DNA of 64,000 nt from NCBI GenBank assembly GCA_020723485.1, contig DYIU01000001.1, positions 1-64,000 on the forward strand. The letters run 5' to 3'. Under the pieces are notes generated by a model. It was not told the origin of the DNA. It did no database searches and worked only from the letters and a program-made list of their open reading frames with translations. Numbering within the stretch: the stretch's first letter is position 1; every line of letters starts with the position of its first letter. Below are positions 13,255-43,618 of the stretch, piece after piece. The stretch comes from Acidimicrobium ferrooxidans. GTDB lineage: Bacteria > Actinomycetota > Geothermincolia > Fen-727 > Anoxymicrobiaceae. Made by a program: the position numbers and the translations under genes.

Positions 13255-13807
13255 AATACCCCCCGTGTCCACGGACTGATAATAGTATTATATTTATATC
13301 TACACGTGAGTGGCACGGCGAAGGAATTAATGAAGGGGTACCAATCACACAATCCAGAGCGAAATCTGCTTTCTATATATGCTCCAAGATCCGCCGAAGA
13401 GCACGGTAATCCATCTTATCGTGCTCAACGAATTAGAGAATTCCGCTTGTCGCGTGCGGGAATGCGGGAAACTTGCGGAGCGAGTTCCCACTTGCTCCCC
13501 TTCCCTCAAGTACCATAGACTTACTGCGGCAACTGACACGGCAGAGGGGAAGTTAATTTGTCATCAGTGGGTCTTACTGCAACAACCTGGTCTTCTGTAG
13601 CTGCGATAGCTTCCGGATTGCCACGGGTATTCTTTGAGCTCCACATCATGAGAGACCCGCTCTCAGGTTAAAAGATGGGTAATATAGTGGAGCAAGGCGA
13701 TCAATGAGGTTCAAAGAGTGAACTTCCGCAGATCTCAAAATCAGTCGTTTCAACTATGAAGACTCAAACGATTCTGCAATACAAGTCGGGACAATGTGGA
13801 GCACTTA
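13255..13807. other. Intergenic, about 550 bp, no gene seen
   Basis: This AT-rich stretch between two divergent genes has no open frame with a credible start. A TATAAT-type hexamer close to the NucS-like gene on the minus strand could be its -10. Otherwise I see nothing. Confidence 0.5.
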
Positions 13808-23628: not shown

Positions 23629-23706
23629 CGTGCTGCTCTCCGGCAAGGGTCACTCAATCCATAATTAGCGTCGGTAAATCAGGAGATGGATCACATTGGA
23701 CCAAGA

Positions 23707-24036
23707 TCAGAACTCCAGGCTTCTGCCGATGACCCCAGCCCGGATCTTTGCCTTTGACCGCCTATTCCCCGCACCGTCAGACCACTCATCATAGCGAAGC
23801 GAGCCCGATACGACAACACGGTCGCCTTTCTTGAGCTCGACCAGGCAGTTCTCGGCGAGCTTGCCGTACGCCTCCACGTCGAAGAAGTCGCTCCGCTTCA
23901 CCTTCTCGCCGGAGCCTGCTTCGGTGTACTCCACGTGAGTGGCGACCCGCATGTTGGCCGCGGTCCCGTTGCTCAAAGTCCCAGCCGCCGGGTCGTCGGT
24001 GAGGTTTCCGACCATTGTGACGTTGTTGATGTTCAA
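23707..24036 (-). CDS. ssb: Single-stranded DNA-binding protein (first copy)
   Basis: A 109-residue OB-fold SSB (NINNVTMVGNLTDDPAA..., DFFDVEAYGKLAENCLVELKKGDRVVVSGSLRYDEW). It lacks the long acidic C-terminal tail of chromosomal SSBs, as is common for mobile-element copies. It would coat single strands made during transfer or replication. Translation starts at a TTG (24036) with an AAAAGGAGGAG box. It lies 15 bp after the Phd-like gene and 78 bp before the receiver/PKD gene. A second, different SSB is at 30251-30595. Confidence 0.92.
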   Translation of the reverse strand: MNINNVTMVGNLTDDPAAGTLSNGTAANMRVATHVEYTEAGSGEKVKRSDFFDVEAYGKLAENCLVELKKGDRVVVSGSLRYDEWSDGAGNRRSKAKIRAGVIGRSLEF

Positions 24037-24051
24037 AGCTTCTCCTCCTTT

Positions 24052-24407: not shown

Positions 24408-24719
24408 ATGGGACCGGCAGAAATGGCAAGAAAGCCGAAACCCGCTCCTTCCAATTTCAGCAGGGACGAGCTCACCGAGCTCGAGGTGACGATCGCAAAG
24501 AACCTGAAGATGTACCGCGAGCTCTTCGGGCTGACCCAGCAAGAGGTGGCCCGCAGGATCGGCTCGAGTGTCCAGACAGTCGCCCATTGGGAGCAGGGGC
24601 TAAAGGTCCCACGACCTGAGTGGTTTGGTGCCCTGGCTAAGCTTTACGGAGTGGATGTGGGCGCTTTCTGGAACGAACCACCCAAGACCAAAGGTCGGCG
24701 CACCCGCCGGCCCAAGTAA
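24408..24719 (+). CDS. XRE-family helix-turn-helix regulator
   Basis: A 103-residue Cro/CI-type regulator. The HTH spans about 38-85 (NLKMYRELFGLTQQEVARRIGSSVQTVAHWEQGLKVP), with the canonical LTQQEVA...VSxxTVxxWE pattern, and both termini are basic. The ATG at 24408 has AAAGGGG seven bases upstream. It is alone on the plus strand, divergent from the Phd-like/ssb operon. The 16-bp site in its promoter recurs at the T4SS promoter, so it is the best candidate for the switch controlling conjugation. The Phd-like protein is the alternative binder. Confidence 0.85.
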   Translation: MGPAEMARKPKPAPSNFSRDELTELEVTIAKNLKMYRELFGLTQQEVARRIGSSVQTVAHWEQGLKVPRPEWFGALAKLYGVDVGAFWNEPPKTKGRRTRRPK

Positions 24720-24766
24720 GAAGGCCTCTCTCGTTCGCAGACCGCATGGTTCGGCAGAAGTTTCCG

Positions 24767-28190: not shown

Positions 28191-28372
28191 GCGTTTTTAC
28201 TTGTCGAGCCACTTCACTTCGAATGTAGAATCCATCTCGGCTTCCTTACATCCCTTATAACAGCCCTGTTTCGAAGTGTAGCATGGGGTTGTGACAACCA
28301 TATTCCAGCTATCAAAGACAACCTGCAATTGCTTGAAGAAAAGAATGACCCGGTTGATGACCATTTTGCGGC

Positions 28373-28522
28373 CCCCTTGACCAGCTCTCTCTTCATCGTC
28401 CTGAAGAACGATTCTAAAACGGCATTGCAATACGGATTTCCTTTTCGTGACATCGAGTGGGTGAAGCCGTTTTCGCTGAGGGCTTTCTGGAATGCCCTGG
28501 AGGTGTACTGAGTGGAGAGTCC
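28373..28522 (-). pseudogene. IS3-family transposase (orfB) fragment
   Basis: About 50 residues match the conserved core of IS3/IS150-type transposases: LSTQYTSRAFQKALSENGFT, HSMSRKGNPYCNAVLESFF and TMKREL, normally HSDrGsQYtS...SMSRKGncyDNAvmESFF. The Asp of the canonical 'DNA' is replaced by Cys and both flanks are unrelated, so this is a dead remnant. It ends only 10 bp from the left edge of the large direct repeat at 28532, marking an old rearrangement junction. No terminal inverted repeats are recognisable. Confidence 0.75.
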
Positions 28523-28531
28523 ACCTTTTCC

Positions 28532-28949
28532 TAGGGCTCCCCATAGGGAGCGAGGGGGACTGCTAGGTTTCCGCCGAGGCGGAAGGGCGCTCATGCGAGT
28601 GAGGCCCGCCGCGCCCGGCGAGAGAAGCGAGACGCCGGACCCCTCGTCGGGGGGAACGTGCCGTCAGCCGAGCGGGAGGCCCCCGGCGTCCCGAGGTCCG
28701 GTGAGGTCCCGAGGGATACGCAGGGGAGCCCTACCGTGAGGCCACAGGCACCCACCCGGCGCAAGGGGTCCCGTCGAGCAAGCGAGCCGTTAAGGGCAGC
28801 GAGTGTCCCGAGGCACGAGGGAAACGAGCTTCCCGGCGCGGAGAGGCCGATTGAGCGGCCAGCCGTCCTCGCCGAGGCGGTCACTCATGGCCTGGGCGGC
28901 GGTCAGGGTCGGGAGGACCCCACCGGGCCGGAGCCCGACGGGGCGGGAT
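28532..28949 (+). repeat. 418-bp direct repeat, copy A (structured, apparently non-coding)
   Basis: Identical to 29807-30224 except for eight substitutions, about 98%, with no gaps. It is very GC-rich and full of short hairpins with purine loops on the plus strand: gctccc-cata-gggagc, ccgcc-ga-ggcgg, ggccg-attgag-cggcc, gggaa-acgagc-ttccc. It lies between the IS3 fragment and the radC stop. Four of the differences fall in one 3' hairpin and break two of its pairs, so this copy appears the degenerate one. Open frames exist on both strands but have no start signals. Confidence 0.85.
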
Positions 28950-28976
28950 CTTTATCCTCCTTCCCTGAAAAGCGAC

Positions 28977-29474
28977 TTAACACTTCTCCCGCAGAACCAT
29001 GCCGCGATAGCTTGTCAGCGACGGCTCTAGAGCGCCGTCGTCCGCGAACGAGTAGAACCCGTCGTCGTGGCCGATGACCAGGTGGTCTACCACGGGTATC
29101 CCGAGCAGCCTCCCCGCCTCCTCGAGTCGCTCGGTAATCCGCCGGTCCTCATCGGAGGGCGCCGGGTCGCCGGAGGGATGGTTGTGCAGGAGCACTACCC
29201 CCGATGCATTGGCGAGGATCGCCGTCTTGAAAACCTCCCTGGGGTGCACCACGCTCGCGGTCAGCGTCCCGACCGACACGGTATGCACGGCCGTTACCCT
29301 CAGCTTCGCGTCCACGCAGGCCAGGACGAAATGCTCGCGATCAAGCTCCCTCATGTAGCCGAAGGCGCCCGCGACATCTCCCGATGACCCCAGCCTGATA
29401 TAAGGCCTGAGGTGATCGTGCACCTTCAAGACGACCTCCACCCTGTAACCCTCGATAGCGTCTGAATAATCCAT
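28977..29474 (-). CDS. radC: RadC-like JAB/MPN domain protein
   Basis: A 165-residue RadC-family protein. The JAMM metal-binding motif is complete: HNHPSGDPAPSDED, with the upstream Glu and VHPREVFKTAI typical of the family. Such short RadC proteins are frequent on plasmids, phages and ICEs, often near ssb or anti-restriction genes; the exact activity is unsettled. The ATG at 29474 has AAAGGGGGAG four bases upstream and removes 12 unlikely residues from the longer frame. It is framed by the two copies of the 418-bp repeat. Confidence 0.9.
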   Translation of the reverse strand: MDYSDAIEGYRVEVVLKVHDHLRPYIRLGSSGDVAGAFGYMRELDREHFVLACVDAKLRVTAVHTVSVGTLTASVVHPREVFKTAILANASGVVLLHNHPSGDPAPSDEDRRITERLEEAGRLLGIPVVDHLVIGHDDGFYSFADDGALEPSLTSYRGMVLREKC

Positions 29475-29510
29475 TCCGCTCCCCCTTTCCCTTGAGGAAA
29501 TGCCTGTCAT

Positions 29511-30224
29511 TTCATCGATAGCCCGCCGAGCCGCCCGCCGGGGCGCCGGCTGTCAAGGCCTTTAGAGCGCAGCGTGCCTTTACAGGCAGGGCCCGAAGGG
29601 TCCCCGGCCCCCGGTGGGCCACTACCGGTCCAGAAGAAGGGAAGTGGGTAAGAGCATGGATCCTCCAGCGCAAGAACCCTCAGTGGGAGGCGGCGCGAGC
29701 AGGCGAGCGCCGCCGTGGGAGAGCGCGGCGTTCAGGCCCGCGGACAGCGGTAGCGGGCGTATCTCGTCGCGCGAGGGGCCGAGTTCCCGGAGACGGAGCC
29801 CCGGTGTAGGGCTCCCCGTAGGGAGCGAGGGGGAATGCTAGGTTTCCGCCGAGGCGGAAGGGCGCTCATGCGAGTGAGGCCCTCCGCGCCCGGCGAGAGA
29901 AGCGAGACGCAGGACCCCTCGTCGGGGGGAACGTGCCGTCAGCCGAGCGGGAGGCCCCCGGCGTCCCGAGGTCCGGTGAGGTCCCGAGGGATACGCAGGG
30001 GAGCCCTACCGTGAGGCCACAGGCACCCACCCGGCGCAAGGGGTCCCGTCGAGCAAGCGAGCCGTTAAGGGCAGCGAGTGTCCCGAGGCACGAGGGAAAC
30101 GAGCTTCCCGGCGCGGAGAGGCCGATTGAGCGGCCAGCCGTCCTCGCCGAGGCGGTCACTCATGGCCTGGGCGGCGGTCAGGGTCGGGAGGACCCCGCCG
30201 GACCGGAGCCCGGCGGGGTGGGAT
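29511..30224 (+). ncRNA. Candidate large structured RNA or folded DNA, includes repeat copy B
   Basis: A 714-bp stretch without a credible gene between radC and ssb. Hairpins follow one another: gcct-ttac-aggc; ggcggcgc-gagcaggcga-gcgccgcc; cccgc-(11 nt)-gcggg; ccccgccgg-accggag-c-ccggcgggg at the 3' end. Loop sequences on the plus strand are purine-rich, as in RNA, while the flanking genes run on the minus strand. Positions 29807-30224 duplicate copy A; 29511-29806 is the part missing there. A possible closing pair is gccgccc near 29530 with gggcggc near 30170. Transcription is not shown. Confidence 0.4.
29807..30224 (+). repeat. 418-bp direct repeat, copy B
   Basis: Counterpart of 28532-28949 at a constant offset of 1275 bp. 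The two repeats flank radC, so recombination between them would delete or circularise a radC-bearing segment. Confidence 0.85.
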
Positions 30225-30250
30225 GAGAGTTTCACCTCCCCCGATAGGTG

Positions 30251-30595
30251 TTACGAAACGCTCCCGAACTCAAGCGACGGGCCGACCGCCAGGGCCCTCA
30301 CCTTCAGTCGGGCTTTGAGCTCACCACCCTCTTCCCACCGGTCATATCTGAGCTGCCCGGCGACGATCACACGGTCGCCACGGCCCAGGGAGGCGAGCAC
30401 GTTCTCAGCCTGGGACCCCCAGACCTCGACGTCAATGAACTCGGAGCGCGCCGCTTTCCCTTCGTCGCCTTGCGCTCCGGGCGCGCGCCAGCGGTTCACC
30501 TCGATCCTGAAGCCAACGGTGCGCGCCTCGCCCTCGACGTTGCTGCGAGGGTCGCCCGTCATGTTGCCGACGATAACTACGTTGTTTACGTACAT
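30251..30595 (-). CDS. ssb: Single-stranded DNA-binding protein (second copy)
   Basis: A 114-residue SSB: MYVNNVVIVGNMTGDPRSN..., FIDVEVWGSQAENVLASLGRGDRVIVAGQLRYDRW. The OB fold is complete and, as in the first copy, the acidic tail is absent. The ATG overlaps the preceding stop as TGATG behind AAAGGGGG. It is clearly different in sequence from the SSB at 23707, so the element carries two SSBs in two operons, perhaps for different stages or partners. Confidence 0.9.
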   Translation of the reverse strand: MYVNNVVIVGNMTGDPRSNVEGEARTVGFRIEVNRWRAPGAQGDEGKAARSEFIDVEVWGSQAENVLASLGRGDRVIVAGQLRYDRWEEGGELKARLKVRALAVGPSLEFGSVS

Positions 30596-30828
30596 CACTC
30601 CCCCTTTGCCGAAACCCGGTGCAGGGCCCTAACGATGGGTTCCTCTCCCCGCTCCAGGGTCATTAGCGCCTCGTAGACCGTGCGCGCGAAATCCTTGAAT
30701 TCGTCCTCGAAGAACGACAGGTGCACCCGCCCGCTCTGCACGACGTAGGTGTCCGCCTCGTCGTAGCGCCACACCGAGGTGACCTCCCCGCTCTGCGATG
30801 TCGTGCTCCCCAGGTCCGTTATGCTCAT
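30595..30828 (-). CDS. Small hypothetical protein coupled to ssb
   Basis: A 77-residue acidic protein (MSITDLGSTTSQSGEVTSVWRYDEADTYVVQSGRVHLSFFEDEFKDF...), not recognised. The start overlaps the preceding 41-residue ORF (ATGA) and its end overlaps the ssb start (TGATG), so three genes are translationally chained. The pattern of strands followed by a helix (EFKDFARTVYEALMTLERG) suggests a small globular fold, perhaps an SSB partner by position. Confidence 0.6.
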   Translation of the reverse strand: MSITDLGSTTSQSGEVTSVWRYDEADTYVVQSGRVHLSFFEDEFKDFARTVYEALMTLERGEEPIVRALHRVSAKGE

Positions 30829-30950
30829 TGGGTCCTCCCTTCCTCGTAGCTCATGATTACCCGGACGCAGTACACCTGTACCGCCGTGCCGAGCTCGCGG
30901 GTCGCCTCCGCGTCCGTCCGGCCCCATGTGAGCGCCAACTCGTAGTTCAT
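30825..30950 (-). CDS. 41-residue ORF, first of the chained ssb genes
   Basis: MNYELALTWGRTDAEATREL and on to YEEGRTQ, 41 residues. It has an AGGAG six bases before the ATG and an ATGA overlap with the next gene, both strong signs of translation. No family recognised. It may act as a leader that couples translation of the following genes. Confidence 0.55.
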   Translation of the reverse strand: MNYELALTWGRTDAEATRELGTAVQVYCVRVIMSYEEGRTQ

Positions 30951-30993
30951 AGAGTTCTCCTCTCCGTATAGTTTGAAGTCCTGTTCACAGCCT

Positions 30994-31443
30994 CTACACT
31001 GCCCGCCCGACGTCTTCGAGCGAAAGCTGGGGACCTGTGACGGGCAGCACGTCGCCGGACCAGCCGTAGCGCTTCCAGTGGTGGATGCGCCCCTCGCGCC
31101 TGTCCTTCTCGTACTCCAGGTCCGCCATGACCCATCCGGTTCCGACGTGCTTCTCGCAGGTGTCGAACCATATCCTCATCAATGCGCCCGACTCTAGCTC
31201 TGAGTGCCGCCCCGCGAAACGCTGCCGCTCTATGTCCAGGTGGATGCTTAAGACGTGCTGGATGCGCTCGCTGTAGAGGTCCTTGACCAGGCCTATCGCG
31301 GTCGCGTTCTCATCGGTGAACCGGTCGGCCGTCCTCGCGGCGTCCCTCCTGGCCCTGCTCAGCCGGGCCTTCCTGCCGACCTGGCGGGTGGCCTTCCCCG
31401 GCCCCATTGCCCTGACGATTCTCGTCGTCTCTTTCAACTGCAT
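30994..31443 (-). CDS. Hypothetical basic protein
   Basis: A 149-residue protein with a very basic N-terminal third (KATRQVGRKARLSRARRDAARTADR), then a helical segment (LVKDLYSERIQHVLSIHLDIERQRF) and a tryptophan-rich end (HHWKRYGWSGDV). The basic part suggests nucleic-acid contact, in keeping with neighbours PC4 and SSB. The ATG at 31443 is chosen since GAGAGG precedes it; the eight extra residues of the longer frame have no start signal. No family recognised. Confidence 0.55.
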   Translation of the reverse strand: MQLKETTRIVRAMGPGKATRQVGRKARLSRARRDAARTADRFTDENATAIGLVKDLYSERIQHVLSIHLDIERQRFAGRHSELESGALMRIWFDTCEKHVGTGWVMADLEYEKDRREGRIHHWKRYGWSGDVLPVTGPQLSLEDVGRAV

Positions 31444-31528
31444 CTTCCTCTCACTCGCTCCCCTCAAGGGAGGGGAAGGGGGCGGTCCCCTGGCGGCAAC
31501 TCAGAGGATTGGTCCGCCCCCGTGGGGT

Positions 31529-31792
31529 CTACTTGCCGGCCTTCCCGACCGGCGCGAGCGCGACCGCCGCCTTGGCGACGATCTCGGCGAACACGTCACT
31601 CGGCACGGTCAGTCCCCTTCTGGTCCAGCCGTCCCAGCCTTCCTTGGGGCTGTCCACTCGCTCCCGGAGGTCGACGTAGTGCTTGCCGTCCTTCTCCAGG
31701 AGAGTGACGACTATGCTCACGCCCTCCTTCTTCGCGACCGCGAAAAGCTCGGTCTTGGAGAAACCGTCCCCGTTGCCATTGGCCTCGTCCAT
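31529..31792 (-). CDS. PC4/p15-like single-stranded DNA-binding protein
   Basis: An 87-residue protein. The segment KTELFAVAKKEGVSIVVTLLEKDGKHYVDLRERVDSPKEGWDGWTRRGLTVPSDVFAEIV fits the PC4 (transcription coactivator p15) fold, in which a 'hVDLRE.y' strand and a 'kGlslp...w..l' helix form a dimeric ssDNA-binding sheet. A perfect AAGGAGGTGAGACGGA-ATG start signal is present. It heads the minus-strand run that leads to ssb and radC, and lies just below the structured stretch at 31818-32397. A role in single-strand handling during transfer or replication is likely. Confidence 0.7.
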   Translation of the reverse strand: MDEANGNGDGFSKTELFAVAKKEGVSIVVTLLEKDGKHYVDLRERVDSPKEGWDGWTRRGLTVPSDVFAEIVAKAAVALAPVGKAGK

Positions 31793-31817
31793 TCCGTCTC
31801 ACCTCCTTGTTGTCTTT

Positions 31818-32397
31818 CCGGCATCCTCACCCCCGAGGCCGGCGGGCCGGCAAGCCAGATGGTCAAGGGGGAAGCGTGGAGATTATTTGGCGCAGCCAAG
31901 CGGAGCCGTGGTGACTCCCGGCGGGTCGCAAGGTTCATGAGGAAGTTTGAGAGGTATAGAGGGGCCCGCGGGCTCCGGGACCCCGAAGCCGCAGTCGGGG
32001 CCAGGTGAGCCGTATGGGACGAAGGGAGAGGTAGCGAGACCGTGCTGCACGCGAGGTTCGAGCGCGCGTCGCCAGGTCCCGAGGGGCAGCGTCAGCGCAA
32101 GCGCAAGGGCTGAAGCGAAGCTGAAGCCGCCGCGCTCCCCGAGGTCCGGCGGCGTGTGCGAAGATCCCGAGCGTCAGGCAGCTCGAGCTCGAGAGCGCCT
32201 CGAGGATTCGGCCCCGGCGAGCCATCCCCGGCTACCCCGCGGCGAGGGCAAGGCCGGAAAAGCGGTTGCCCTCTCCTCGAAGACGACCATTAACCTCGAC
32301 CGCGACGCCGTCACCGCCGAAGGCAGGCGTAGCGTAATAATCTCGAGCGGCCTTGACCAGATGGCGGGACCGCCGAGACTGGGGGTGAGGATGCCGG
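31818..32397 (+). ncRNA. Candidate large structured RNA or folded DNA closed by a 17-bp helix
   Basis: The ends are perfect complements: ccggcatcctcaccccc (31818-31834) pairs with gggggtgaggatgccgg (32381-32397). Inside it, tggtcaagg (31860-31868) pairs with ccttgacca (32351-32359). Between these two helices each strand has its own hairpin (gccggc-gg-gccggc on the left, ggcgg-ga-ccgcc on the right). Further hairpins include gagggcaa/ttgccctc with a 14-nt loop near 32250 and ccgcc/ggcgg near 32130. There is no credible gene. It resembles an ornate non-coding RNA; a MITE with terminal inverted repeats or a single-strand origin are alternatives. Confidence 0.45.
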
Positions 32398-32976
32398 CGA
32401 TCCATGCGCGGCAGCGTTTCGGCGATAGCCGGAAAACCTCCTAAAACGGCAGAAAGCCGTATCATGGCGACAGCCTGGAAAGAAAGGGTAGTGCCGCCAG
32501 GCGCTGAACCGGGAGCCGCCGGCAGGCGTGGAGTTGCCCGGAGGTTCCCGAAAACGACAGTTGACAAAATGACGTCGTGCCTAACGAGATAAAAGACGTG
32601 TTCAGAAGAACCCGGACGCACGACAACACCCTCAGCTCCGAACGCCTCACCACGCCCGCCGACTCGACCAATACCAAACCCCCAATGTCTTTTGTCGAGT
32701 TGTCGCTTTAGAGGCTATTCTTATTCATACCATGTGCGCTATTTCCCCCCACTCCCGAACCCTCACCGCCCGCGCTCAAGTAACCCTACCGAGAGTAACC
32801 TTAGCCTTACTCCATTACACCAAGGTCGAGGGAGGGTTACTTGAGCGCGGGCGGACTGCGCGAATCGCTTCAGAATGGGGAAAATGGCGCACGGGGTTCC
32901 ACCACATATGGTGGGAGCTGTGGTGGACCTCTGGTGGGAGATAGGCAGGGTACGATTTAGAGAATGGGCGCTACTA
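32398..32976. other. Non-coding region, about 580 bp
   Basis: No ORF with a usable start is seen on either strand. The right half holds the nested inverted repeats at 32766-32927. The left half contains short hairpins (for example acggc-agaaa-gccgt near 32455) and a lone TTGACA at about 32562 without a matching -10. It separates the high-GC maintenance genes from the lower-GC defence island. Confidence 0.5.
32766..32854. repeat. 22-bp perfect inverted repeat with nested hairpin
   Basis: The 22 bases at 32766-32787 are the exact reverse complement of 32833-32854, separated by 45 bp. Inside the spacer gagtaa (32793-32798) pairs with ttactc (32807-32812). A third inverted repeat follows at tccaccaca/tgtggtgga (32898-32906 and 32919-32927). 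This is too elaborate for a terminator and lies in non-coding DNA between the maintenance and defence regions. An origin of transfer, an origin of replication or a recombination site are candidates. Confidence 0.75.
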
Positions 32977-35900
32977 TCATGATAAAAAATCAAAGCAGAT
33001 TAGCCGTAGGTTTGAGCGGTCAATTGTCTGTTGTGCAGTCTGAAAACCAGTGTTCTCCGAAGCTGCCTCGGCGCCGTAGTATTGCATCATCTCTTCTATA
33101 GAACCCAATAGCGCTCCAGCATCCCCCGAATTCTGGAAATTCGCATGCTCGCGTCTCAGTCGTTTCGTCTGCACTGTTAGCATGGGCTGTGCCAGAAAGC
33201 GGATGGCGGCAATTACCCGAGATCTCTTAAGGTCGGGGTCATTTATATGCTCCTGCAGTACAACTGATATCGGTTGTTGAATCGGATCCAGAGTTCTCGG
33301 AGCCCTCTCAAGAGCATGTCTTTCGCGAACAGTCCTTTTGATATCGTCGATTATCTTCTCCTGGGATTCGAAAACCGATTCAAACATACCTGGATCCACG
33401 ACACGCACAGTATCCCTGTCACAAGCGATCAGATTTGCAATTACGAAACGGTTGTCCTTAACGGAATCTCTCGCTGAATCGTAATACTTCCAGAAATGGG
33501 TCTTCTGACCTGACTCATCGAGAGCTTGGAAGTAGAAGAAGACTCCCCTCGCACCTTCCTTTATCAGGCCAGAGTGAATTCCATCTGGCAGCAGCTCTAT
33601 GTATTCCGAGCCACCTGCGTTCAGGAACTCTCGTAGTTGCTGTTTTAGAAACTCACTACTGGCGAGTTCAGCAAATTGCTCTTCTTCTTCGATGACGGAG
33701 CCGTCTTCCTCTTGAATCCTCCGCAGGGTGTTGAAGTTCCTGGGGTGAACCGCCTCCCCGAGTACGCTTGCATCAAGAAAGCCTGCGCGGTCGATATCGG
33801 CGATCTTTCTGTTCAGACTCTCGACAAGGCCCAATAGGCGTTCCAGTCCTATATCTGGGAACATGTTGAATACCCATAGGGTGTCGAAAAGTGTGCCTAT
33901 TCTGTCAATCCTGCCTGCGCGCTGTACCATCCGAGTCGGGTTCCAGTGAAGGTCGTAATTCACGAGGTAACCGCAATCCTGGAGGTTTTGTCCTTCAGAG
34001 AGGACATCAGTAGAAAAGAGGATGTCGATTTCTCGATCTGTACCTGCCCACTCCGGCTTTTTGTTCGCAACAGGGGCAAACTTCTGGATTGTCTGCACGC
34101 GGTCTTTGGGGCTTGAGCCACTATCCATCCTTCTCACTGCAACCCCGAGCCCCTCTGAAAACTCCTTCGCAGTTGGAGACTCAGGATCTCCGAGCTGGCG
34201 ATACAGGTACCGAGCGGTATCCTTATAGTAGGAGAAAACAAGGACCTTCTGTCCTTTAAGTTCTGTGGACAATAGGTCCTTAAGGCGCTGCAGTTTGGCA
34301 TCGTTCTCGGGTCCGATGTCTTTGACCCGTTGCCAAATGCCTGTCAGTACATCGACATCGTGCTGTACAGCATCGTGCAGCTTTCTCAAGTCATAGTCTG
34401 CGGGGTCAACCGTATCCATGCCCTCGAGAATATGCTGCACATCCTCACTATCGTCCATTCTTTCGGCAAGAGACGCAGGTGTAGCATCATCGTCTTCATC
34501 TTCGGTGGAGATATAACGGATGGCATTCTGGAAATCCGAACTGCGTAGTAGTCTCCCATCCAGGATGAAGCTTTCGAAAGTCTTCAAGAAAGACAGCGCT
34601 CTCCTGATGCTAATCTGGAAAGCAGCTATGCTTGATTCGAAGCGCTTGAGATACCGGCTCTTGAAGATTCCTACCAATGCCTGCTCGCGTCCTGCTTCGA
34701 ACTCATCCACTTCAACATCCGATTTCTTATAGGCCTCCAGGTTGTATGGGGCCAACGTCAGACTTTCGACGCCAGAGACGACATGTTCGTAGATACCGGA
34801 ATATGTTGCTTCCAAGTTGTAATTGATTGTCTTCAGCTTGCGCTCGGGAAAAGAGATTCGCTCACCATTGATAGTCGCGTCAGGATAAGCAGAACGAATA
34901 AAGGCCCGACTTCTGCGGATAACGATCTCCTCGAGAAGGTTGAATAGCGCAAGAGCTTCTGCACCGGCATGTGATTCTCGCCTGGCTCTCAGGAAATACT
35001 TGTGTAGGTCTCCGATACCGCTGGCTGCGAAGTAACCTCGATCCCCCATTGTTACCAGGGACAGCTGTTGGTATAGATCGAAGAGGTCGTTGTTAATAGG
35101 TGTTGCAGTGAGTAGTATGACCTTCTTTCTCTCCCCGCTTCTCCCTCTCCCACCATAAGCGCCGAGTATCTGCTCTATTGCTGCGTATCGTTGGGCACTT
35201 CTGTTTCGGAAGTTATGGGACTCATCAACCAAGATAACATCGGCATCGCCCCATGGCTCGGGGTCAAACTCCTCACGGCCAAGCTCCTCCTGTGAAAGAA
35301 TCTTCGCCGCAATCGCCACGTCGGCAAGTTCTCCGGTCCACATTTCACGAAGGCTCGCCGGACAAATAATCAACGCCTTCTGCCGCAGATGATATGCGTA
35401 ATCCTCAAGGAGCTTCTTGCCTATCCAAGTCTTACCAAGACCAACGGAGTCTGCAACCATCACCCCGTCGTACCGAGCGAGTATCTTTCGTGCCTTCTTA
35501 ACAGCATCTTCTTGAAACTCCGCGAGTTCTATTGCGGAGCGAACCTCCACCGATTCCTCTGTATCAAGATCTTCCTTGAAATACTCGTAGAGCGCCTTCA
35601 TATAAACTTGGTACGGCGTGTATTCCTTTGACCCGAACTTCGAAGCGTTCAGTATTCCAATCAACTCGTTTTTGAAATCTCTGGACTCCCCCCAGAGTTG
35701 TTCAAACCACCTGTCCAGCTCGGCAATAGCCCGCGCCCCTACACTCGACATAACCTGTTGCATCACATCCAGATCATATTGTTTCCCTAGCGAATCAGGT
35801 GCTTCGCTCGCGGTCCAGGGTAATGTAGAAAGGCCTTCTGCGGATTCCTCCTCCGACATCAATGTCTTATGGGAGAGGTTCAGTTCCCTGTTAGACGTAA

Positions 35901-36369
35901 GTCCTGGAATCGTGAAATTGCTCGAACCAACTATTCCCACCAATGGCTGGAGTCTGTCCCAGCCAGAACTGGGCTGGTCTCCATAGAACAGGTAGCATTT
36001 CGCGTGTAGGAAACCGCCCTCATATAGACGGACGGCAACGATATCCCTATTCAAGTAGCCGATAAGGTCCTCTACCAGCCGCAATGTTGCTTCATCAAAC
36101 GGAAGAGCTGCGAGATCCTGGGTAATTACACCATTTACCTGGTCACCTGTAGGACGAACACCCAATCTATCTGCGGAGGTAGGCTCCACACCCAAGAGAA
36201 GTCGAAAACTCCCAAGGCCGAGAAGGCCATCCTTTACAAGGCCAAATCCGCCAATGGTGAAGTATGCGGTGGCAATATCCATTGACCTGCCAGCGTTCTG
36301 AAGAAGCAAGCTATTCAATGCGTCTGCGAGCACATGTTCTCTATTATCAATTACGAATGGAACTTTCAT
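32977..36369 (-). CDS. PLD-domain SNF2-like helicase of a two-gene restriction-type defence system
   Basis: A 1130-residue protein. The N-terminal phospholipase D-like nuclease domain has the HAK motif (GGFLHAKCYLFYG, near 123) and the GSSNFT element. A superfamily 2 helicase follows: Walker A ADSVGLGKTW near 310, DEAH-type box VDESHN near 382, LLTATPINND, and motif VI QRAGRIDRIG near 821. Related proteins occur with Eco57I-like methylases as a translocating nuclease. The start lies three bases after the methylase stop, so both come from one message. All helicase motifs look intact. Confidence 0.85.
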   Translation of the reverse strand: MKVPFVIDNREHVLADALNSLLLQNAGRSMDIATAYFTIGGFGLVKDGLLGLGSFRLLLGVEPTSADRLGVRPTGDQVNGVITQDLAALPFDEATLRLVEDLIGYLNRDIVAVRLYEGGFLHAKCYLFYGDQPSSGWDRLQPLVGIVGSSNFTIPGLTSNRELNLSHKTLMSEEESAEGLSTLPWTASEAPDSLGKQYDLDVMQQVMSSVGARAIAELDRWFEQLWGESRDFKNELIGILNASKFGSKEYTPYQVYMKALYEYFKEDLDTEESVEVRSAIELAEFQEDAVKKARKILARYDGVMVADSVGLGKTWIGKKLLEDYAYHLRQKALIICPASLREMWTGELADVAIAAKILSQEELGREEFDPEPWGDADVILVDESHNFRNRSAQRYAAIEQILGAYGGRGRSGERKKVILLTATPINNDLFDLYQQLSLVTMGDRGYFAASGIGDLHKYFLRARRESHAGAEALALFNLLEEIVIRRSRAFIRSAYPDATINGERISFPERKLKTINYNLEATYSGIYEHVVSGVESLTLAPYNLEAYKKSDVEVDEFEAGREQALVGIFKSRYLKRFESSIAAFQISIRRALSFLKTFESFILDGRLLRSSDFQNAIRYISTEDEDDDATPASLAERMDDSEDVQHILEGMDTVDPADYDLRKLHDAVQHDVDVLTGIWQRVKDIGPENDAKLQRLKDLLSTELKGQKVLVFSYYKDTARYLYRQLGDPESPTAKEFSEGLGVAVRRMDSGSSPKDRVQTIQKFAPVANKKPEWAGTDREIDILFSTDVLSEGQNLQDCGYLVNYDLHWNPTRMVQRAGRIDRIGTLFDTLWVFNMFPDIGLERLLGLVESLNRKIADIDRAGFLDASVLGEAVHPRNFNTLRRIQEEDGSVIEEEEQFAELASSEFLKQQLREFLNAGGSEYIELLPDGIHSGLIKEGARGVFFYFQALDESGQKTHFWKYYDSARDSVKDNRFVIANLIACDRDTVRVVDPGMFESVFESQEKIIDDIKRTVRERHALERAPRTLDPIQQPISVVLQEHINDPDLKRSRVIAAIRFLAQPMLTVQTKRLRREHANFQNSGDAGALLGSIEEMMQYYGAEAASENTGFQTAQQTIDRSNLRLICFDFLS

Positions 36370-36372
36370 GAT

Positions 36373-39300
36373 CTAAAGCATCTCCCGTAAGCGCGTATAT
36401 ATGTAGGTAGCTTCGTTCTCATCCAACCCGTAGCATCTGCAGAGAACGGCATCAATTACGTCTTGTACATCTTGACTGTCTTGGGTTAAGAAAGCTCTTT
36501 CTGATCTTGACCGCATAATCCGCCTCCCCTCCACGTCTTGGATATAGCGGCAGAGTCCAGACAGCGCGCGGGTGACGCTTGAATTCATTTCGCCAGGATT
36601 TACAATTGCATCACAGAGCGCTCGGCTGAGTGCGTCCCATTGCCGTTGTTCAAAAAGATTCTCCCATTGGACAACATCACCATTCTCAATGGTTGTTGGC
36701 ATGGGGAGCGCATTGAACTGGTATTCGTTAACTTTTGAATTTGTGCTTCTCAATCTAAAGAACCAATCGAGAATCTTCGAATTGAGGAAAGCTAGAAGCA
36801 AATCCAGGTCGATTGCCGAGGATTCCTCTGTTATGTAACTTACTGTATCGAGGCAAAAGCTATTTCTTGGGATTCTTGCTGCGATTATTCTTCGGAAGTT
36901 ATTCTGGGGAGAACTTCGCTGAAATCCCACTCGTTCGCTCCTAAAAGCATAAGCCTTCGAATCTTTACCCTTACCAGCAAGGAACTTGCCAATATTAAGA
37001 TGTATATCTTCCCCCTGCGATGCAGACCTGACTGCATACATAGTTATGTTGGAGCCATGAAGAACTAAGGGGTCGCTATCACAACAAGTGATTGCATCTC
37101 GTTCACGCTCATTGGTCTCGTTAACTTCGCCCTGGTACGATTTCACTGGGACTTTACGTAGTGCCATGACTGATTCAGTACTCATAATCCGCATGGCGAT
37201 ATCCCAATCCCGCTGAGGGCAGGAGGGAATTGAAGCATCTTCTGGGTCAAATCTGAGGACCTCGTCACTGTTCATTGCCAGACAAGGAGAAGTCGGAACC
37301 ACGTAACGTCCGGGATGTGTTCTTACGCAAAAAGAAGATTCACTCGGATTTGCTGAGGTTACGAATATCGTTGTTGCTAGTTTTGCTTCGGGGAAAACTC
37401 TGTTGTTAGGATCATCCTTTTGCGGAAACGCTTCTATTCGAATCAGCCCCTTATCTTGCAGAAGGACTTTCCTTACTCCTGTAGCTTGAGTGTCACCTAA
37501 TAGGGCCATAGGGACAATGAATGACATCGCAGAATGTGGGCTTAAGAGGCTCAGACACCGACATATGAATAGCTTGTATAGATTATTCTTTCCATGGAAT
37601 GACGGTTCATACTCTTTGTGCTGAGCGAAGAAAGCCTGCTCGTCCGAGATATCACGGCCAAGTTCTTTTGAAGCCAAGACATCATACGGTGGATTCCCGA
37701 CAACAACCTCAAATCCGCCATCGTCTTTCCGTTCCCCTTTTTCGAAGAAGACTTCCGGAAACTCTAACTCCCAGTGAAACAAACGGTATCTCGCGTGCGT
37801 AGCCACGGCTATTTCTGCAACTTCTCGATTCGCTTCGCCAAGATCTTTCACATTTCCAGAATCCTTTATCCACGTTTCAGATTCAGGACTCTGGAGAAAA
37901 TCTACCGTGGGATCGAATTCTTCTGCCTTTTTACCCTTATTGATTTGTCGGGGTGTATTTCCGAACCATCTACTTGTAAAGACATTCAGGATCTCTTTGA
38001 AAGGTGCAAGAGCGTCTGTAGCCTTTCGATACTCCATTCTTGATTCTTGGACTTGCGTACTGGTAGCGTCTGAGAGATCGCCAATATGGTGCATAAGGTC
38101 CGTGGCAAGCATCAGCCCGGTGAACTGACTACCCCAAAGAGCGGATTGCGCGGATTCAACCTTCTTGCGTACTTCCTCGACAGATACTCCGACGAGAGAG
38201 TTGCCGCATTTGATGTGATGGTCTAGAAACGACAGAGGCGCTCCCAAGGTAAAACAGTCGAGCCATAATGAAACCTTGGTGAGTTCTACTGCCATTGGAT
38301 TCAGGTCAACACCATAAACACACTTCTTGAGAACGTGGCGTTTCAACAAGTTGATATCCGTCAGCCTATTTCGGTCTATAGCTATTCCCTTTTCGTCCAT
38401 CTCTGCAAAGATTGTCTCCCTCATGGAAGAGAGGTGCGAAAGGATTGGATTCCATGGGAATGAATTCAAAAAGTCCAGGGAACGGTCTGTGATGTAGTCA
38501 ACTGCTTCGACGAGGAAATGGCCCGAACCCATAGCCGGGTCCAATACTTTTATATTGAAGAACTCCTCAACAATGGCGCTGCCAATAGGTTCAGCCTTCG
38601 AATCTGGCTCGGGTCTAATCCCCTTGTCGCGAAGAGCCTCCTGTTTCTTGAAAAAGGCTCGTCGGTCCTGTTGTGCTTTTCGCAACATCGGACGTATTTG
38701 GTCGAACTTATCGTCCAGTACTGGCCCAACGACATTCTGGACGATATATTCGACTATAAAATCTGGCGTGTAGTATGAACCAGTAGCCTTGCGCTCTCTC
38801 CTGTCGTTCTCCAGGTACATTTGACCTTTGCGGATAACCTTCTCACTAGCGCTTTTTCCTTTTCCTTCCTTGAGTGGCTTCAGACCCTTCTTGACTGCTT
38901 CTCGGTATAGCAGAACCTCTTCCGTCTTTTTCCCCTTTACTACCGCCATCTTCTCTGGAGCCATACGTAACTTGAACTCCAGTAGTCCTTCGTAGATGGA
39001 ACCAAGCTGCCGGACTCCCAAAGATTTGTAATCGATGAAAACTAGATCACCACGTTTTGAGTCGGCATCGCGCGAAAGAAGGTCGAGCGCCAAGGCAAGG
39101 TGCCTGTTGGGCAGCATGGTCGATCCCAAGAATCGGGCATTTATTGCTTCAGGGCTTGTGTCGTTCTCGTCAGGCTCGGATAAGAACAAGCCCCCATTGT
39201 ATGGCGGAATATTTAGAGCTGGTTCTCCCCGGTCAACAATCCGAAATAGTTGTTCCAACCTCTCATAGAATTCGCAGTTATCGTTCGAGTATGTCTTCTT

Positions 39301-40830
39301 GATGCGAACGGCTGCCTCATGAGAAAGCGCTCCGGCTGTCTCGGCTATTTCTTCCTTTATCTTCTTTAGGCTGACCCCGAAATATCCTCGAACCTCGCGG
39401 ACAGGCAGCAAGTCCCTTGCTTCTGCATAGAGTAGAAAGAGAATGCGATATAGAAAAGTGAGAGTTCCCTGGAAAACACTATCTAGAATCTCCTGAGTAA
39501 ACTCCGTGGTAGCTGCATCTCCTGACCGTATATAAGTGATAAATCCTTCAGCAATATGAGGAAATACATCCTCGAAGACCCGCTCCTTCAACCTTTCGCC
39601 CAATTCGCGCGCGTATTCATCGCTACCGTCCAGCAGGCGGTCGAGATAAGTGGTCCCCACTTCACCATCTTCTGCTTCCCGCGATGTGGGGAGGAAGGCA
39701 TCGCTGCGAAACAGTAACCAGAAATAACGGAAAGCAACAGCTATGTCCTGGGCTTGGGGAAGGGATTGTGCAAGCGTCTCCTCCAGGTCAATCTCGTAGT
39801 AGTTGGTTGAGCGTGAACGGGCGCGGCGAGAGTACAAGCGCCATAGTTTCCCGTTCGTTACTATGGCCCAGGGCGCCTCCTCTTGCTCCAAAAGACTCAC
39901 GACCCAGGCTCCGGGATTCTCTTCTGGAGTCTTGTCGTCTCGGACATTGTCTTTGCCATCCAAGAACCTGCCCCAGGAGTACACGAGGCAATTGGCTACT
40001 GGCACTTCTCCATTTTCAGGTGAGAAAAGTCGATAGTCTGCCTCCTTTTTTTCACTGTTAGCCTTTTTTCCGACTTCAACACGAAATCCCAATACTTCGA
40101 ACGCGGGTTCAAGAAGCTGCTTCCTAAGAAGCTCCTCCCCTTTACCTGCATACCTTGCAGTTGCTTGGCTGTAGAGCTCGCAAAGCCTCAGGAACGTTGG
40201 CTTGGGGTCCTCCGACCACTCTTCAAGTTGTGGCATCCTATTCATCAGGTAGTAGTCAGAAAAGAGAGCCCGATTGTTGAAGAACTCCTCAGACCATTCG
40301 GCGATGGAATAGGCGGCGAGGAGCTTGTCGTACTGGGCAAATGGGTCTGATTCCGTATATGAAAACCGCTTGAGCACTCGGATATGAACAGTTGATGGTT
40401 TCCTACGGTCAATTGTAAGAGCTCGAGGCCTCACCCCAACCTGCCTCTGGCCAATACCTGTGGATTCAGCAGTGGCTGGAGGCGAATACCTCTCAATGAG
40501 CACGAAATCAATCCGCTCGTAATCGCTGGTCAATACCAAGAGGTAGTTTCCTGCCCTGTTGCGAAATGCCCTGGCCAGAGCTCGTGTCTGGCTTACCGTG
40601 ACACTCGTAAGCTCAAACAGATATATCTGGAGGAGTCCTTCTTGGCTTGCAATAAGCTCAATATGACGTATTGGACGTATAGTACTCTCTGCTGAGATGC
40701 CCAGGTTCTCCGGGGTTTGTATTGTTCTTTCATCTGTGTTGTAACCAAGATTAGAGAAGAAGGCAGCGATACCATCGGGATTGTTCAATTCCTGGACGTT
40801 TCGAGGCATCAGATCAACATCAAATTCCAT
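36373..40830 (-). CDS. Eco57I-like N6-adenine DNA methyltransferase of the defence pair
   Basis: A 1485-residue protein. AdoMet-binding motif I is LDPAMGSGHFLVEA near 765 and the catalytic motif IV is NPPY (VVVGNPPYDVL) near 1043, the gamma-type N6-adenine methylase order. The long N-terminal part (1-250) has a strand-rich domain and the region around 250-330 resembles type I/IIG N-terminal modules. The C-terminal region should hold the target-recognition domain. Partnered with the PLD-helicase, it would mark self DNA. Size and motif layout recall PglX/Eco57I-type methylases. The gene is intact. Confidence 0.85.
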   Translation of the reverse strand: MEFDVDLMPRNVQELNNPDGIAAFFSNLGYNTDERTIQTPENLGISAESTIRPIRHIELIASQEGLLQIYLFELTSVTVSQTRALARAFRNRAGNYLLVLTSDYERIDFVLIERYSPPATAESTGIGQRQVGVRPRALTIDRRKPSTVHIRVLKRFSYTESDPFAQYDKLLAAYSIAEWSEEFFNNRALFSDYYLMNRMPQLEEWSEDPKPTFLRLCELYSQATARYAGKGEELLRKQLLEPAFEVLGFRVEVGKKANSEKKEADYRLFSPENGEVPVANCLVYSWGRFLDGKDNVRDDKTPEENPGAWVVSLLEQEEAPWAIVTNGKLWRLYSRRARSRSTNYYEIDLEETLAQSLPQAQDIAVAFRYFWLLFRSDAFLPTSREAEDGEVGTTYLDRLLDGSDEYARELGERLKERVFEDVFPHIAEGFITYIRSGDAATTEFTQEILDSVFQGTLTFLYRILFLLYAEARDLLPVREVRGYFGVSLKKIKEEIAETAGALSHEAAVRIKKTYSNDNCEFYERLEQLFRIVDRGEPALNIPPYNGGLFLSEPDENDTSPEAINARFLGSTMLPNRHLALALDLLSRDADSKRGDLVFIDYKSLGVRQLGSIYEGLLEFKLRMAPEKMAVVKGKKTEEVLLYREAVKKGLKPLKEGKGKSASEKVIRKGQMYLENDRRERKATGSYYTPDFIVEYIVQNVVGPVLDDKFDQIRPMLRKAQQDRRAFFKKQEALRDKGIRPEPDSKAEPIGSAIVEEFFNIKVLDPAMGSGHFLVEAVDYITDRSLDFLNSFPWNPILSHLSSMRETIFAEMDEKGIAIDRNRLTDINLLKRHVLKKCVYGVDLNPMAVELTKVSLWLDCFTLGAPLSFLDHHIKCGNSLVGVSVEEVRKKVESAQSALWGSQFTGLMLATDLMHHIGDLSDATSTQVQESRMEYRKATDALAPFKEILNVFTSRWFGNTPRQINKGKKAEEFDPTVDFLQSPESETWIKDSGNVKDLGEANREVAEIAVATHARYRLFHWELEFPEVFFEKGERKDDGGFEVVVGNPPYDVLASKELGRDISDEQAFFAQHKEYEPSFHGKNNLYKLFICRCLSLLSPHSAMSFIVPMALLGDTQATGVRKVLLQDKGLIRIEAFPQKDDPNNRVFPEAKLATTIFVTSANPSESSFCVRTHPGRYVVPTSPCLAMNSDEVLRFDPEDASIPSCPQRDWDIAMRIMSTESVMALRKVPVKSYQGEVNETNERERDAITCCDSDPLVLHGSNITMYAVRSASQGEDIHLNIGKFLAGKGKDSKAYAFRSERVGFQRSSPQNNFRRIIAARIPRNSFCLDTVSYITEESSAIDLDLLLAFLNSKILDWFFRLRSTNSKVNEYQFNALPMPTTIENGDVVQWENLFEQRQWDALSRALCDAIVNPGEMNSSVTRALSGLCRYIQDVEGRRIMRSRSERAFLTQDSQDVQDVIDAVLCRCYGLDENEATYIYTRLREML

Positions 40831-41397
40831 CGGATTCCCAGCCCTTTGCTGCCGTCATTGAGATACGCCCAATATACCGCTTCCGACTGACACATTTTAC
40901 TACGAAGCAGTCTGTCCTTGACCATAAGAGAGTTCCAACCAATTAGACACCGGTTGGAGTTGACCCGCTTTCGTTGACACAATCGGAAATGAGACGTTGC
41001 AGGTTAAGGTGTCAAGGGAAACGGGGCAACATCAGGTTGCGTACACATGGTGCACGAAAGTAGGCGGAGTCCAACAAGTAACGGGAATAGTAGACAGGCC
41101 CCAAGTGCTGACTCATGCCACGGAAAACGAATGCAGACCGGGGAGTCCCCTATCGGTGCCTCGGTTAGATAGGCACTCTTGTTCTCTCGAGGTTGTCTGA
41201 CGCAATACAGCTTCTTCAAAGCCACAAATCGTCAGTGGCTCAACCATGATTGGACTTGCAACACACGGAGTTAGACTGCCACAGAGGCCGGGGTGTACCT
41301 TTTGTGCATCAACTTCCTTGGATTTTGCAGTTCCGTGTTCAGTAAAGATATCGGTCTTTTCAGTTTCCTGCGTTCTGTGACTTCTCGGTGGAGTTCG
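40831..41397. other. Intergenic, about 570 bp, no gene seen
   Basis: Upstream of the methylase gene and downstream of the HEPN-like gene. No ORF with a start signal, tRNA or repeat was recognised on either strand. It presumably includes the promoter of the methylase-helicase operon. Confidence 0.5.
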
Positions 41398-42483
41398 TCA
41401 GAAATCCATCACTATAAAGACAGCAGCATATAGAAGCAGCGGCATTACACGATGGCGATTCACGAACAGCCTGTCATCTCCTACGTAGTAGTTATGAGAC
41501 GAATAATTCCTGACGAGCAGAGTCATTGTCAGAGCCTTGGCGATAACTTCGTCTGTTGTCGTTTCAGGTTTACCCAGGATGTCGCTTATTCGGTCGCTGA
41601 AAGGACTGTTGCGCGTACTGCCAAGGCCGCTGGACACGTACTGGCGGACCAATGCGTTTGGCATGTTCTCGAGAAGTCCAGCCAATAGAGGTTCGCTTTC
41701 CGTGACACTTGCCCAGCACGGGTTTGGTGAGGCGATTGCTTTGTCTCTTAGCACGGACTCGACAAAGGTGCAAATCTCACGGAGCCCCAGAGACAATCGA
41801 CCCTTTGTGTAGCCGAGCGGACACTCCATTAGCAGTGCATCGGTTGTCTGCAAATCGTGCAGCGTTCCTAGCAATACGAGTCTATGTTCAAACGCATGGG
41901 TTCCCGGAACTCCACTCCAGGCTGCTCTCATCAGGCGAACAAAATCGGCAGCAGTCGTGTTCACTGTCACCTGCTGGAGATTGGCATGATATCTAGTGAT
42001 ATGCCCAAATAGCCAACTGTAGGAATTCCGCTCGAACTGAGCGTACAGCGGGCTATCAACAATCGCTCGTTCTTGTTCGTCTTCTTGATGATATGGCTCG
42101 TCTTCCTTGAAAGCTGTGAGTATGTGAGCAATCCCTTCATCCGTCTTTCCGGAAAGAAGCTGGGCGATTCCGTAGTTCACATAAACCTGCCCCTTATTAA
42201 GGGTAAATGAAGGCTCGATCTTCTGTCTTTCGTTAATCAGAGCATCCAGCAGGACGAGCAGGTCGCCATAGTATTTGTCTGCAAGATGCACTTGGCCGTT
42301 GCGGATTAAGGTCGCTCCGTCGTTGTTAATCGCTGTGAAATATGCGTCCTTCTCATCGGAGGGCAACGGTGGGTTTTCGGCATCAAATCCAACTGCGGAA
42401 GACACATTGTTGGCCAACTGAACCCTTCTCTCGTTCAAGAAATCAGACCAAATGCTGAGCAAAGCGTAAGTATTGATACTCAC
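41398..42483 (-). CDS. Helical-repeat protein with C-terminal HEPN-type motif
   Basis: A 361-residue helical protein. The N-terminal half has TPR-like helices (GATLIRNGQVHLADKYYGDLLVLLDALI). Near residue 328 it has LLVRNYSSHNYYVGD, an Arg-Asn-x3-His HEPN ribonuclease motif, followed by a final hydrophobic helix. The start at an ATG (42483) agrees with the domain. It sits alone among defence genes on the minus strand, with 160 bp of apparently empty DNA upstream. An RNA-cleaving abortive-infection protein is inferred from the motif and neighbourhood; the family is not one I can name. Confidence 0.6.
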   Translation of the reverse strand: MSINTYALLSIWSDFLNERRVQLANNVSSAVGFDAENPPLPSDEKDAYFTAINNDGATLIRNGQVHLADKYYGDLLVLLDALINERQKIEPSFTLNKGQVYVNYGIAQLLSGKTDEGIAHILTAFKEDEPYHQEDEQERAIVDSPLYAQFERNSYSWLFGHITRYHANLQQVTVNTTAADFVRLMRAAWSGVPGTHAFEHRLVLLGTLHDLQTTDALLMECPLGYTKGRLSLGLREICTFVESVLRDKAIASPNPCWASVTESEPLLAGLLENMPNALVRQYVSSGLGSTRNSPFSDRISDILGKPETTTDEVIAKALTMTLLVRNYSSHNYYVGDDRLFVNRHRVMPLLLYAAVFIVMDF

Positions 42484-42643
42484 CGAAGAACCCCCTTCCT
42501 CGCCGATGACGGGCTACTGTTCCTGTTCATTCCCCAGCAAAGTAGCGCCAATAACAGGTAGACGGCGTGCCGCGACTGCCTTCATCGGTTTTTCAGCCTG
42601 ATCATAAAACATGCTCTCCTCGAGACAATTGACTGCCGGTGCT

Positions 42644-43618
42644 CTACACATCGCGATCAACGCCGTAGTACTTGGCCGTGAACTCACCAGTCCAATCATC
42701 ATGAAGATCAGATTCTACGATTTCTTTAAAAACCTGATCAATGCTTAGGCTACTCACTCGGCTCTTGAGGTCATCTGGCAGAAACGAAACGAGGAATAGG
42801 AACAATCCGCGCTCGCCGAAGGGACCATTGGACAAGAAGGTTGGGTTTCGAGGGTCGTATAGGAGCACGTAACTGCCACCCTCATGCAAAGCAAATAGAA
42901 GCTCACGAAAGAACTGATAGTGACTTGCGAATGGGCAAAAAGGGCTTGAACCCAATAGTCCATCCAGAAGACCGCGCTCCTGCATCTGGTCCCAGTATGT
43001 ACGATATATCCACTGTAGATAGCACATGTCGAACGGTGGACTGGGATTTGCCCCATTACAGTCGCCATCCTCGAAGATCTTGCAGCCTCCGAACTCATTC
43101 TCAGACAATTTCGCTTCGATGAAGAGCGAATCGTTGGCCTCACCGCCTTTAATAACCAGGTCAATCGAAGTTGGCTGAGCAACCTCTTCCTTGAAAATAG
43201 CGCTGCCACTAACCTCGAAATCTGCAGTGATCGGACCATCAGGCCAAGAAATTCCGCTTTTGGATACAGCGGCTTTCAGCGGGGAATAGTCATCTCGCAC
43301 GATGAGCGGGCCTATGAGGTTGAAGAGCATAGCCTGGCTGCTCATGCCATTGTGAATATGTTGATGTAGCGGATAGGCTCGCTTATCCAGTGCAGCTTTG
43401 GCGATTTCAGCTTCTATGTAATTGACAACTTCGTCGAGAATGATATTACATCGCCAATCCCGCTCACGATTAGCGAGGAGGAAGGAGTATTTGTTGCTTA
43501 CTGGGTAGTCTTTTTCTCTGAACCATTCAGTAGCCACTTTACGCAGCTCTCTCTGATATTTTTTGTAACGGGGATAAGGCCACTCGAGAGCCCTCTTTCT
43601 GCTGTTGGTTTTGCTCAT
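42644..43618 (-). CDS. PGN_0703-like putative restriction endonuclease
   Basis: A 324-residue protein. The nuclease core reads SIDLVIKGG followed by DSLFIEAKLSENEFGG, the D...ExK arrangement of PD-(D/E)XK enzymes, with cysteine- and aromatic-rich surroundings (FDMCYLQWIYRTYWDQM, LLGSSPFCPFASHYQFFRELL) like the PGN_0703 family. No methylase partner is adjacent, the nearest being at 36373. The ATG at 43618 opens the frame with a basic N-terminus. The gene stands alone and is AT-richer than the transfer genes. A nuclease role in defence is likely. Confidence 0.65.
   Translation of the reverse strand: MSKTNSRKRALEWPYPRYKKYQRELRKVATEWFREKDYPVSNKYSFLLANRERDWRCNIILDEVVNYIEAEIAKAALDKRAYPLHQHIHNGMSSQAMLFNLIGPLIVRDDYSPLKAAVSKSGISWPDGPITADFEVSGSAIFKEEVAQPTSIDLVIKGGEANDSLFIEAKLSENEFGGCKIFEDGDCNGANPSPPFDMCYLQWIYRTYWDQMQERGLLDGLLGSSPFCPFASHYQFFRELLFALHEGGSYVLLYDPRNPTFLSNGPFGERGLFLFLVSFLPDDLKSRVSSLSIDQVFKEIVESDLHDDWTGEFTAKYYGVDRDV

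Follow-up and report, generated by a model that had tools for sequence, protein, structure and literature searches.

We identify three long, rod-shaped nucleic acid structures, R1 (28532–28949), R2 (29520–30240) and R3 (31818–32397), all folded from the + strand of a 64,000-nt stretch of Acidimicrobium ferrooxidans DNA (GCA_020723485.1, contig DYIU01000001.1, positions 1–64,000, forward strand; hereafter the window). They are carried by an integrative conjugative element (ICE) in an Actinomycetota genome. Only R3 had been reported in the initial annotation, which missed the other two, similarly built and lying within 3 kb of it. The reading that we favour, although we place it a little below an even chance, is that R1–R3 form a strand-specific family of single-stranded DNA elements of the ICE, serving as promoter and/or primer site and resembling the Frpo sites of the F plasmid, promoters that turn on protective genes while single-stranded DNA is arriving in a new cell. 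On present evidence we propose that the rods work like Frpo and claim no membership of that family.

R3 is closed by a perfect 17-bp helix between its two ends (31818–31834 with 32381–32397), followed by an inner 9-bp helix (31860–31868 with 32351–32359); both had been described before, and both are confirmed at these coordinates and recur in the minimum-energy fold. The closure had been judged unlikely by chance, and indeed the 17-mer is the longest perfect inverted repeat in 31780–32560, a region whose dinucleotide shuffles reach 13 at most (100 shuffles). A hairpin was also thought to bulge from each strand between these helices (31838–31851 and 32363–32374). Both can form locally, as small side hairpins on the rod, but in the minimum-energy fold the opposing strands pair with each other at these sites, so that the rod is nearly continuous. 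Pairs spanning more than 200 nt make up 57% of the R3 fold versus 20% in shuffles. As RNA, the + strand folds to −320.6 kcal/mol (z −7.4; 0 of 100 shuffles are as stable) and the − strand to −292.5 kcal/mol (z −4.6); with DNA parameters the respective z values are −5.3 and −3.4. The purine-rich + strand loops and gene-free interior noted earlier are borne out by the base composition of unpaired positions (A 0.40, G 0.35) and by the codon-position GC of the R3 open reading frames (0.66/0.65/0.74, versus ~0.65/0.44/0.85 in neighbouring genes). Structure continues 3′ of the rod, beyond the boundary first given, as a series of small + strand hairpins running on to ~32560 (32398–32560; 223-nt fold, z −2.6).

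R1 and R2 share a 418-nt repeat (28532–28949 and 29807–30224; 8 differences, 98% identity) whose copies lie 1.3 kb apart and flank radC. R1 corresponds to the first copy; R2 comprises the second plus a left extension, and fills the gap from the radC start to the ssb stop. Both fold strongly on the + strand (R2: RNA z −4.7, DNA z −3.9). An IS3-type transposase remnant (..MSRKGNPYCNAVLESFF..; 28214–28594) adjoins the left end of R1. A 36-nt similarity between R1/R2 and R3 was rejected as homology, since the structural positions differ.

What unites the three rods is a structural grammar. Each contains five or six tandem G.A internal loops (six in R2), always on the + strand; GA/GA accounts for the majority of 2×2 internal loops in R1–R3, nearly always in the context 5′-YGAR-3′/5′-YGAR-3′. 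Such YGAR/YGAR sequences form tandem sheared G.A pairs, a common RNA motif. Counted per 600-nt window, each rod holds five of these loops and the remainder of the 64 kb averages 0.15 over both strands; the best non-rod window has three and overlaps R1. At most two occur in any of 1,274 windows from other genomes, and among all ~1,690 other 600-nt windows scanned none exceeds two, save the one overlapping R1. Shuffles of R3, which has five, give a mean of 0.3 and a maximum of 2 (120 shuffles). The mismatches carry a related bias. With G-U pairing disallowed, which puts the two strands on a more equal footing in the model, the + strand of R2 and R3 has 15 purine–purine single mismatches versus 4 pyrimidine–pyrimidine, and 6 G.T versus 1 A.C. 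As this bias persists without the G-U bonus, selection most likely acts on the + strand in its single-stranded form.

The rods are positioned precisely with respect to genes. The edge of R3 lies 25 nt from the ATG, and ~10 nt from the Shine–Dalgarno sequence (GGAGGTGAG), of a leftward operon running from 31792 to 30251; its first gene encodes an 87-aa protein (31529–31792, − strand) with no Pfam or PHROG match, and it also carries the gene for single-stranded DNA-binding protein (SSB; 30251–30598, − strand; PF00436, E 1e-17). R2 occupies 45–776 nt upstream of a RadC-like JAB-domain gene (28977–29474, − strand; PF04002, E 4e-41), and R1 sits beyond the radC stop. The folded + strand is antisense to the ssb operon at R3 and to radC at R2. 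Between the rods and these two starts there is no space for an ordinary promoter. A scan of 28400–33100 on either strand found no conventional sigma-70 −35/−10 pair, a consensus that may not be the host's, and no evidence of a + strand promoter or terminator for the rods. On the minus strand, the left arm of the R3 9-bp helix reads CCTTGACCA, which is TTGACA-like; the TTGACC in this helix and an AATAAT stem are wrongly spaced for a −35/−10 pair, with the same proviso that the host consensus may differ.

The surrounding element begins at the very start of the window, where the end of a tRNA gene is followed by a tyrosine integrase gene (154–1269). Beyond it come genes for a VirB4/TraG-like ATPase, a TrbL-like protein, RadC, SSB, a Replic_Relax protein (46688–47590, − strand; PF13814, E 5e-18), likely a component of the transfer module, and a coupling protein, nearly all on the − strand. 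The coupling-protein gene (47590–50718) has a YdjM membrane domain at its N terminus, an unusual fusion. A second ssb gene (23704–24039), absent from the longest-ORF list, stands divergent to an XRE-type regulator at ~24410–24720. Defence cargo lies at 32977–43618 (a PLD-SNF2 helicase with DISARM-like DrmD/DrmMI matches, an Eco57I-type methylase and a REase-ARP nuclease), and an ApeA-like HEPN gene lies apart from it at 13796–15223.

As a yardstick, the F plasmid leading region was folded in the same way, with correction for GC content. The Frpo sites come out as its two most stable windows; they lie on the transferred strand, antisense to genes, and 4 nt separate the end of the one upstream of ssb from that gene. 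Frpo1 and Frpo2 (90% identical by our computation) are reported to be 92% identical and about 5 kb apart, to form stem-loops that reconstitute −35/−10 boxes and to be required for early expression (PMC9849209); Frpo-like promoters are widespread in leading regions and directly upstream of ssb (PMC11541004). Folded single-stranded DNA had been offered as an alternative in the initial annotation, and it accounts for the location no less well than RNA does, the rods being placed like the F elements. Like Frpo1 and Frpo2, they are long one-strand rods that are non-coding, GC-rich relative to their surroundings, antisense to and abutting a gene start, upstream of ssb and present in near-identical copies (R1/R2, 98%). 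The single strand folds beyond chance in each case (DNA z −5.3 for R3 and −3.9 for R2, compared with −7.1 for F Frpo2), and R3 and R2 lie directly upstream of the ssb operon and radC. They differ from the F sites in length (580–720 nt versus ~410–470 nt as folded here), in tandem G.A loops (5–6 per rod versus 0–1 per site), in having purine-rich rather than T-rich loops, and in that −35/−10 boxes were not found. A third stable intergenic rod of the F leading region (L086 8343–8756, 56.34–56.76 kb) precedes an antirestriction gene and has no clear similarity to Frpo1/2.

We therefore favour Frpo-like elements because the copies share one orientation, two abut the starts of the ssb operon and radC, these genes are antisense to the strand that folds, and there is neither sign of nor room for an ordinary promoter. 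The element context (integrase, VirB4/TraG-like ATPase, TrbL-like protein, coupling protein, Replic_Relax, SSB and RadC) supports this reading, as do the anatomy of the F control, the scarcity of G-U pairs and the strand bias that remains without the G-U bonus. It is weakened by the lack of a recognisable −35/−10 pair, where Frpo reconstitutes its boxes, by the greater length of the rods and by their A/G-rich, rRNA-like loops, unlike the T-rich loops of Frpo1/2. Mechanistically, once conjugative transfer or rolling-circle replication exposes the + strand as a single strand, R1–R3 would each fold into a nearly double-stranded rod at which RNA polymerase could enter and/or the complementary strand could be primed, a working mode like that of F-plasmid Frpo/ssi. 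The leftward neighbours (the ssb operon from R3, radC from R2) could then be expressed or copied while the element is not yet double-stranded. We infer that the + strand is the one transferred, that polymerase binds the rods and that they have a role in early expression.

The nearest competitor, possible though on the unlikely side, is that R1–R3 are large structured non-coding RNAs, transcribed from the + strand divergently from ssb and radC and acting in the manner of GOLLD, ROOL or OLE while falling outside those families. The tandem G.A loops, mostly YGAR/YGAR and far above the shuffle mean, would suit this, as would a length comparable to that of ROOL (574-position model) and unpaired bases that are A/G-rich, close to E. 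coli rRNA and unlike Frpo1/2: A 0.35–0.40 and G 0.31–0.36 across R1–R3, against A 0.39–0.48 and G 0.23–0.31 in the rRNA. Of the earlier proposal of a large mobile-element RNA, one part stands: the structure is strand-specific, non-coding, exceptionally stable and carried by a mobile element. The likening to GOLLD/ROOL is not demonstrated, given that there is no Rfam match, no evident + strand promoter and a rod in place of a multi-branched fold. ROOL (RF03087) and GOLLD resemble the rods in being highly structured, non-coding, several hundred nt long and located on mobile elements, but they are multi-junction RNAs with pseudoknots, and the tRNA genes found here do not adjoin the rods. Also against transcription, fewer than 30 nt separate R3 from the operon start, little for two divergent promoters, and promoter or terminator evidence is wanting; G-U pairs are few, and no short-loop hairpin with a perfect stem of at least 4 bp has a GNRA loop.

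Several apparent discriminators between RNA and single-stranded DNA fail against the controls. That R3 scores better with RNA than with DNA parameters was rejected as an argument for RNA, and does not tell against DNA, since F Frpo2 behaves likewise (RNA z −8.6, DNA z −7.1). G-U pairs constitute 3–6% in R1–R3 and 11–16% in E. coli rRNA; this fraction is not decisive because Frpo1/2 have 11–12%, and the third F site has 2%. Loops are T-rich in Frpo1/2 and A-rich in the third intergenic F site. Neither loop composition nor G-U fraction separates the two hypotheses. Hairpin-loop type (GNRA versus GNYA/GNA) was dropped as there are too few loops.

Searches for relatives returned little beyond the 3′ flank. 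An Rfam search, suggested when R3 was first described, gave no family match for the rods at threshold with any covariance model; ROOL was not found in this genome, a weak negative in that the positive control also gave no match. No homologue of the R3 rod turned up elsewhere in the genome, in 99 relatives, in 31 members of the class, in a wider sample of the phylum, or in phages or plasmids. No plasmid record matches R3, and no likeness in sequence to known Frpo was found. The covariance model built on the R1/R2 core recovered R1 and R2 only, and a sequence search with these two rods hit fragments only, mostly radC. With neighbouring proteins as bait, no relatives emerged of the 87-aa protein (plasmids searched) or of a 157-aa protein, and SSB and RadC relatives elsewhere occupy chromosomal-looking loci without rods. 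The stable windows at Replic_Relax loci of other families proved to be a CRISPR array and repeats of unrelated kinds, all lacking the G.A signature. Scanning viral contigs for patterns of the 3′ flank and of the hairpin gave no match, nor did scans for the neighbouring proteins. Only the flank 32530–32985 is conserved, in one related genome (G005) and, for its hairpin, in another (G001, JAHJCO01); the contigs of both these related elements break beside the rod region.

An improbable option is that the rods are single-strand origins, at which + strand hairpins would start synthesis of the second strand during rolling-circle replication, with no role in transcription. ICEs can carry such origins, and sso1 of ICEBs1 provides a precedent, being orientation-specific and folding into stem-loops whose structure may outweigh their sequence (PMC4595007). 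The common orientation of all three rods would agree with this, as does the general likeness to ICEBs1 sso1 and plasmid single-strand origins as orientation-specific structures; R1–R3 are however much larger, number three and include two placed exactly at gene starts. Very unlikely is a functionless MITE, inverted-duplication relic or insertion-sequence remnant, for which the near-identity of R1 and R2 and the transposase remnant beside R1 might speak. The MITE origin raised in the initial annotation is not supported, R3 being single-copy in the genome and R1/R2 confined to two copies without evident target-site duplication. A decaying palindrome would yield G.T and A.C mismatches equally and no strand-specific tandem G.A loops, so the + strand mismatch bias and strand-specific G.A loops argue against one. 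An assembly artefact or misjoined repeat, to which the contig breaks in two relatives might hint, is extremely unlikely given that the window lies within a 1.1-Mb contig, the flanking genes are intact and R1, R2 and R3 are distinct.

Separate from the rods, a long hairpin at 32730–32894 (z −6.0) has a 25-bp inner stem (32766–32790 with 32830–32854) that covaries between genera: the G001 counterpart retains it through three double compensatory changes, and an A.G mismatch is conserved as well. Beside it lie short repeats, one inverted and three direct (32900–32945), whose layout is kept between genera while the motif changes (GGTGG here, TGCAGAC in G001 and G005). The same hairpin adjoins a Replic_Relax/coupling-protein module in G001, where the Replic_Relax copy is 58% identical. 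Hairpin and repeats together (32730–32945) are a candidate oriT or replication origin of changed protein specificity. They recall oriT hairpins with relaxosome-binding repeats in combining a structure-conserved hairpin with short repeats near a transfer module, but differ in having no known nic site. Nearer R3, 32550–32710 is ~82% identical to G005:C176:4725–4893 and contains two direct copies and one inverted copy of the motif ACGAnA..ACAAAAGACGT. Were the hairpin at 32730–32894 an oriT and the ssb side the first to enter, the − strand would be transferred, which is wrong for the Frpo-like model; the + strand rods would then not be promoters on incoming DNA, and + strand RNA would be the better reading.

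Should the RNA reading hold, R1–R3 would represent a new class of large ornate RNA in conjugative elements. Taken more broadly, it is conceivable, if rather doubtful, that they define a novel class of giant rods, each folded from one strand around tandem sheared G.A steps and outside any known sequence family; present in several copies beside ssb and radC, they would function, as RNA or as single-stranded DNA, within minutes of the onset of transfer. Plasmids of Proteobacteria have supplied the best-known single-stranded promoters. If the Frpo-like reading is true, finding the same anatomy in a conjugative element from a deep Actinomycetota lineage would imply that gene expression from single-stranded DNA on entry is far more ancient or has arisen repeatedly, and the differing grammar of the rods (tandem G.A steps, no recognisable boxes) would supply a structural rule for finding such elements where sequence similarity fails.
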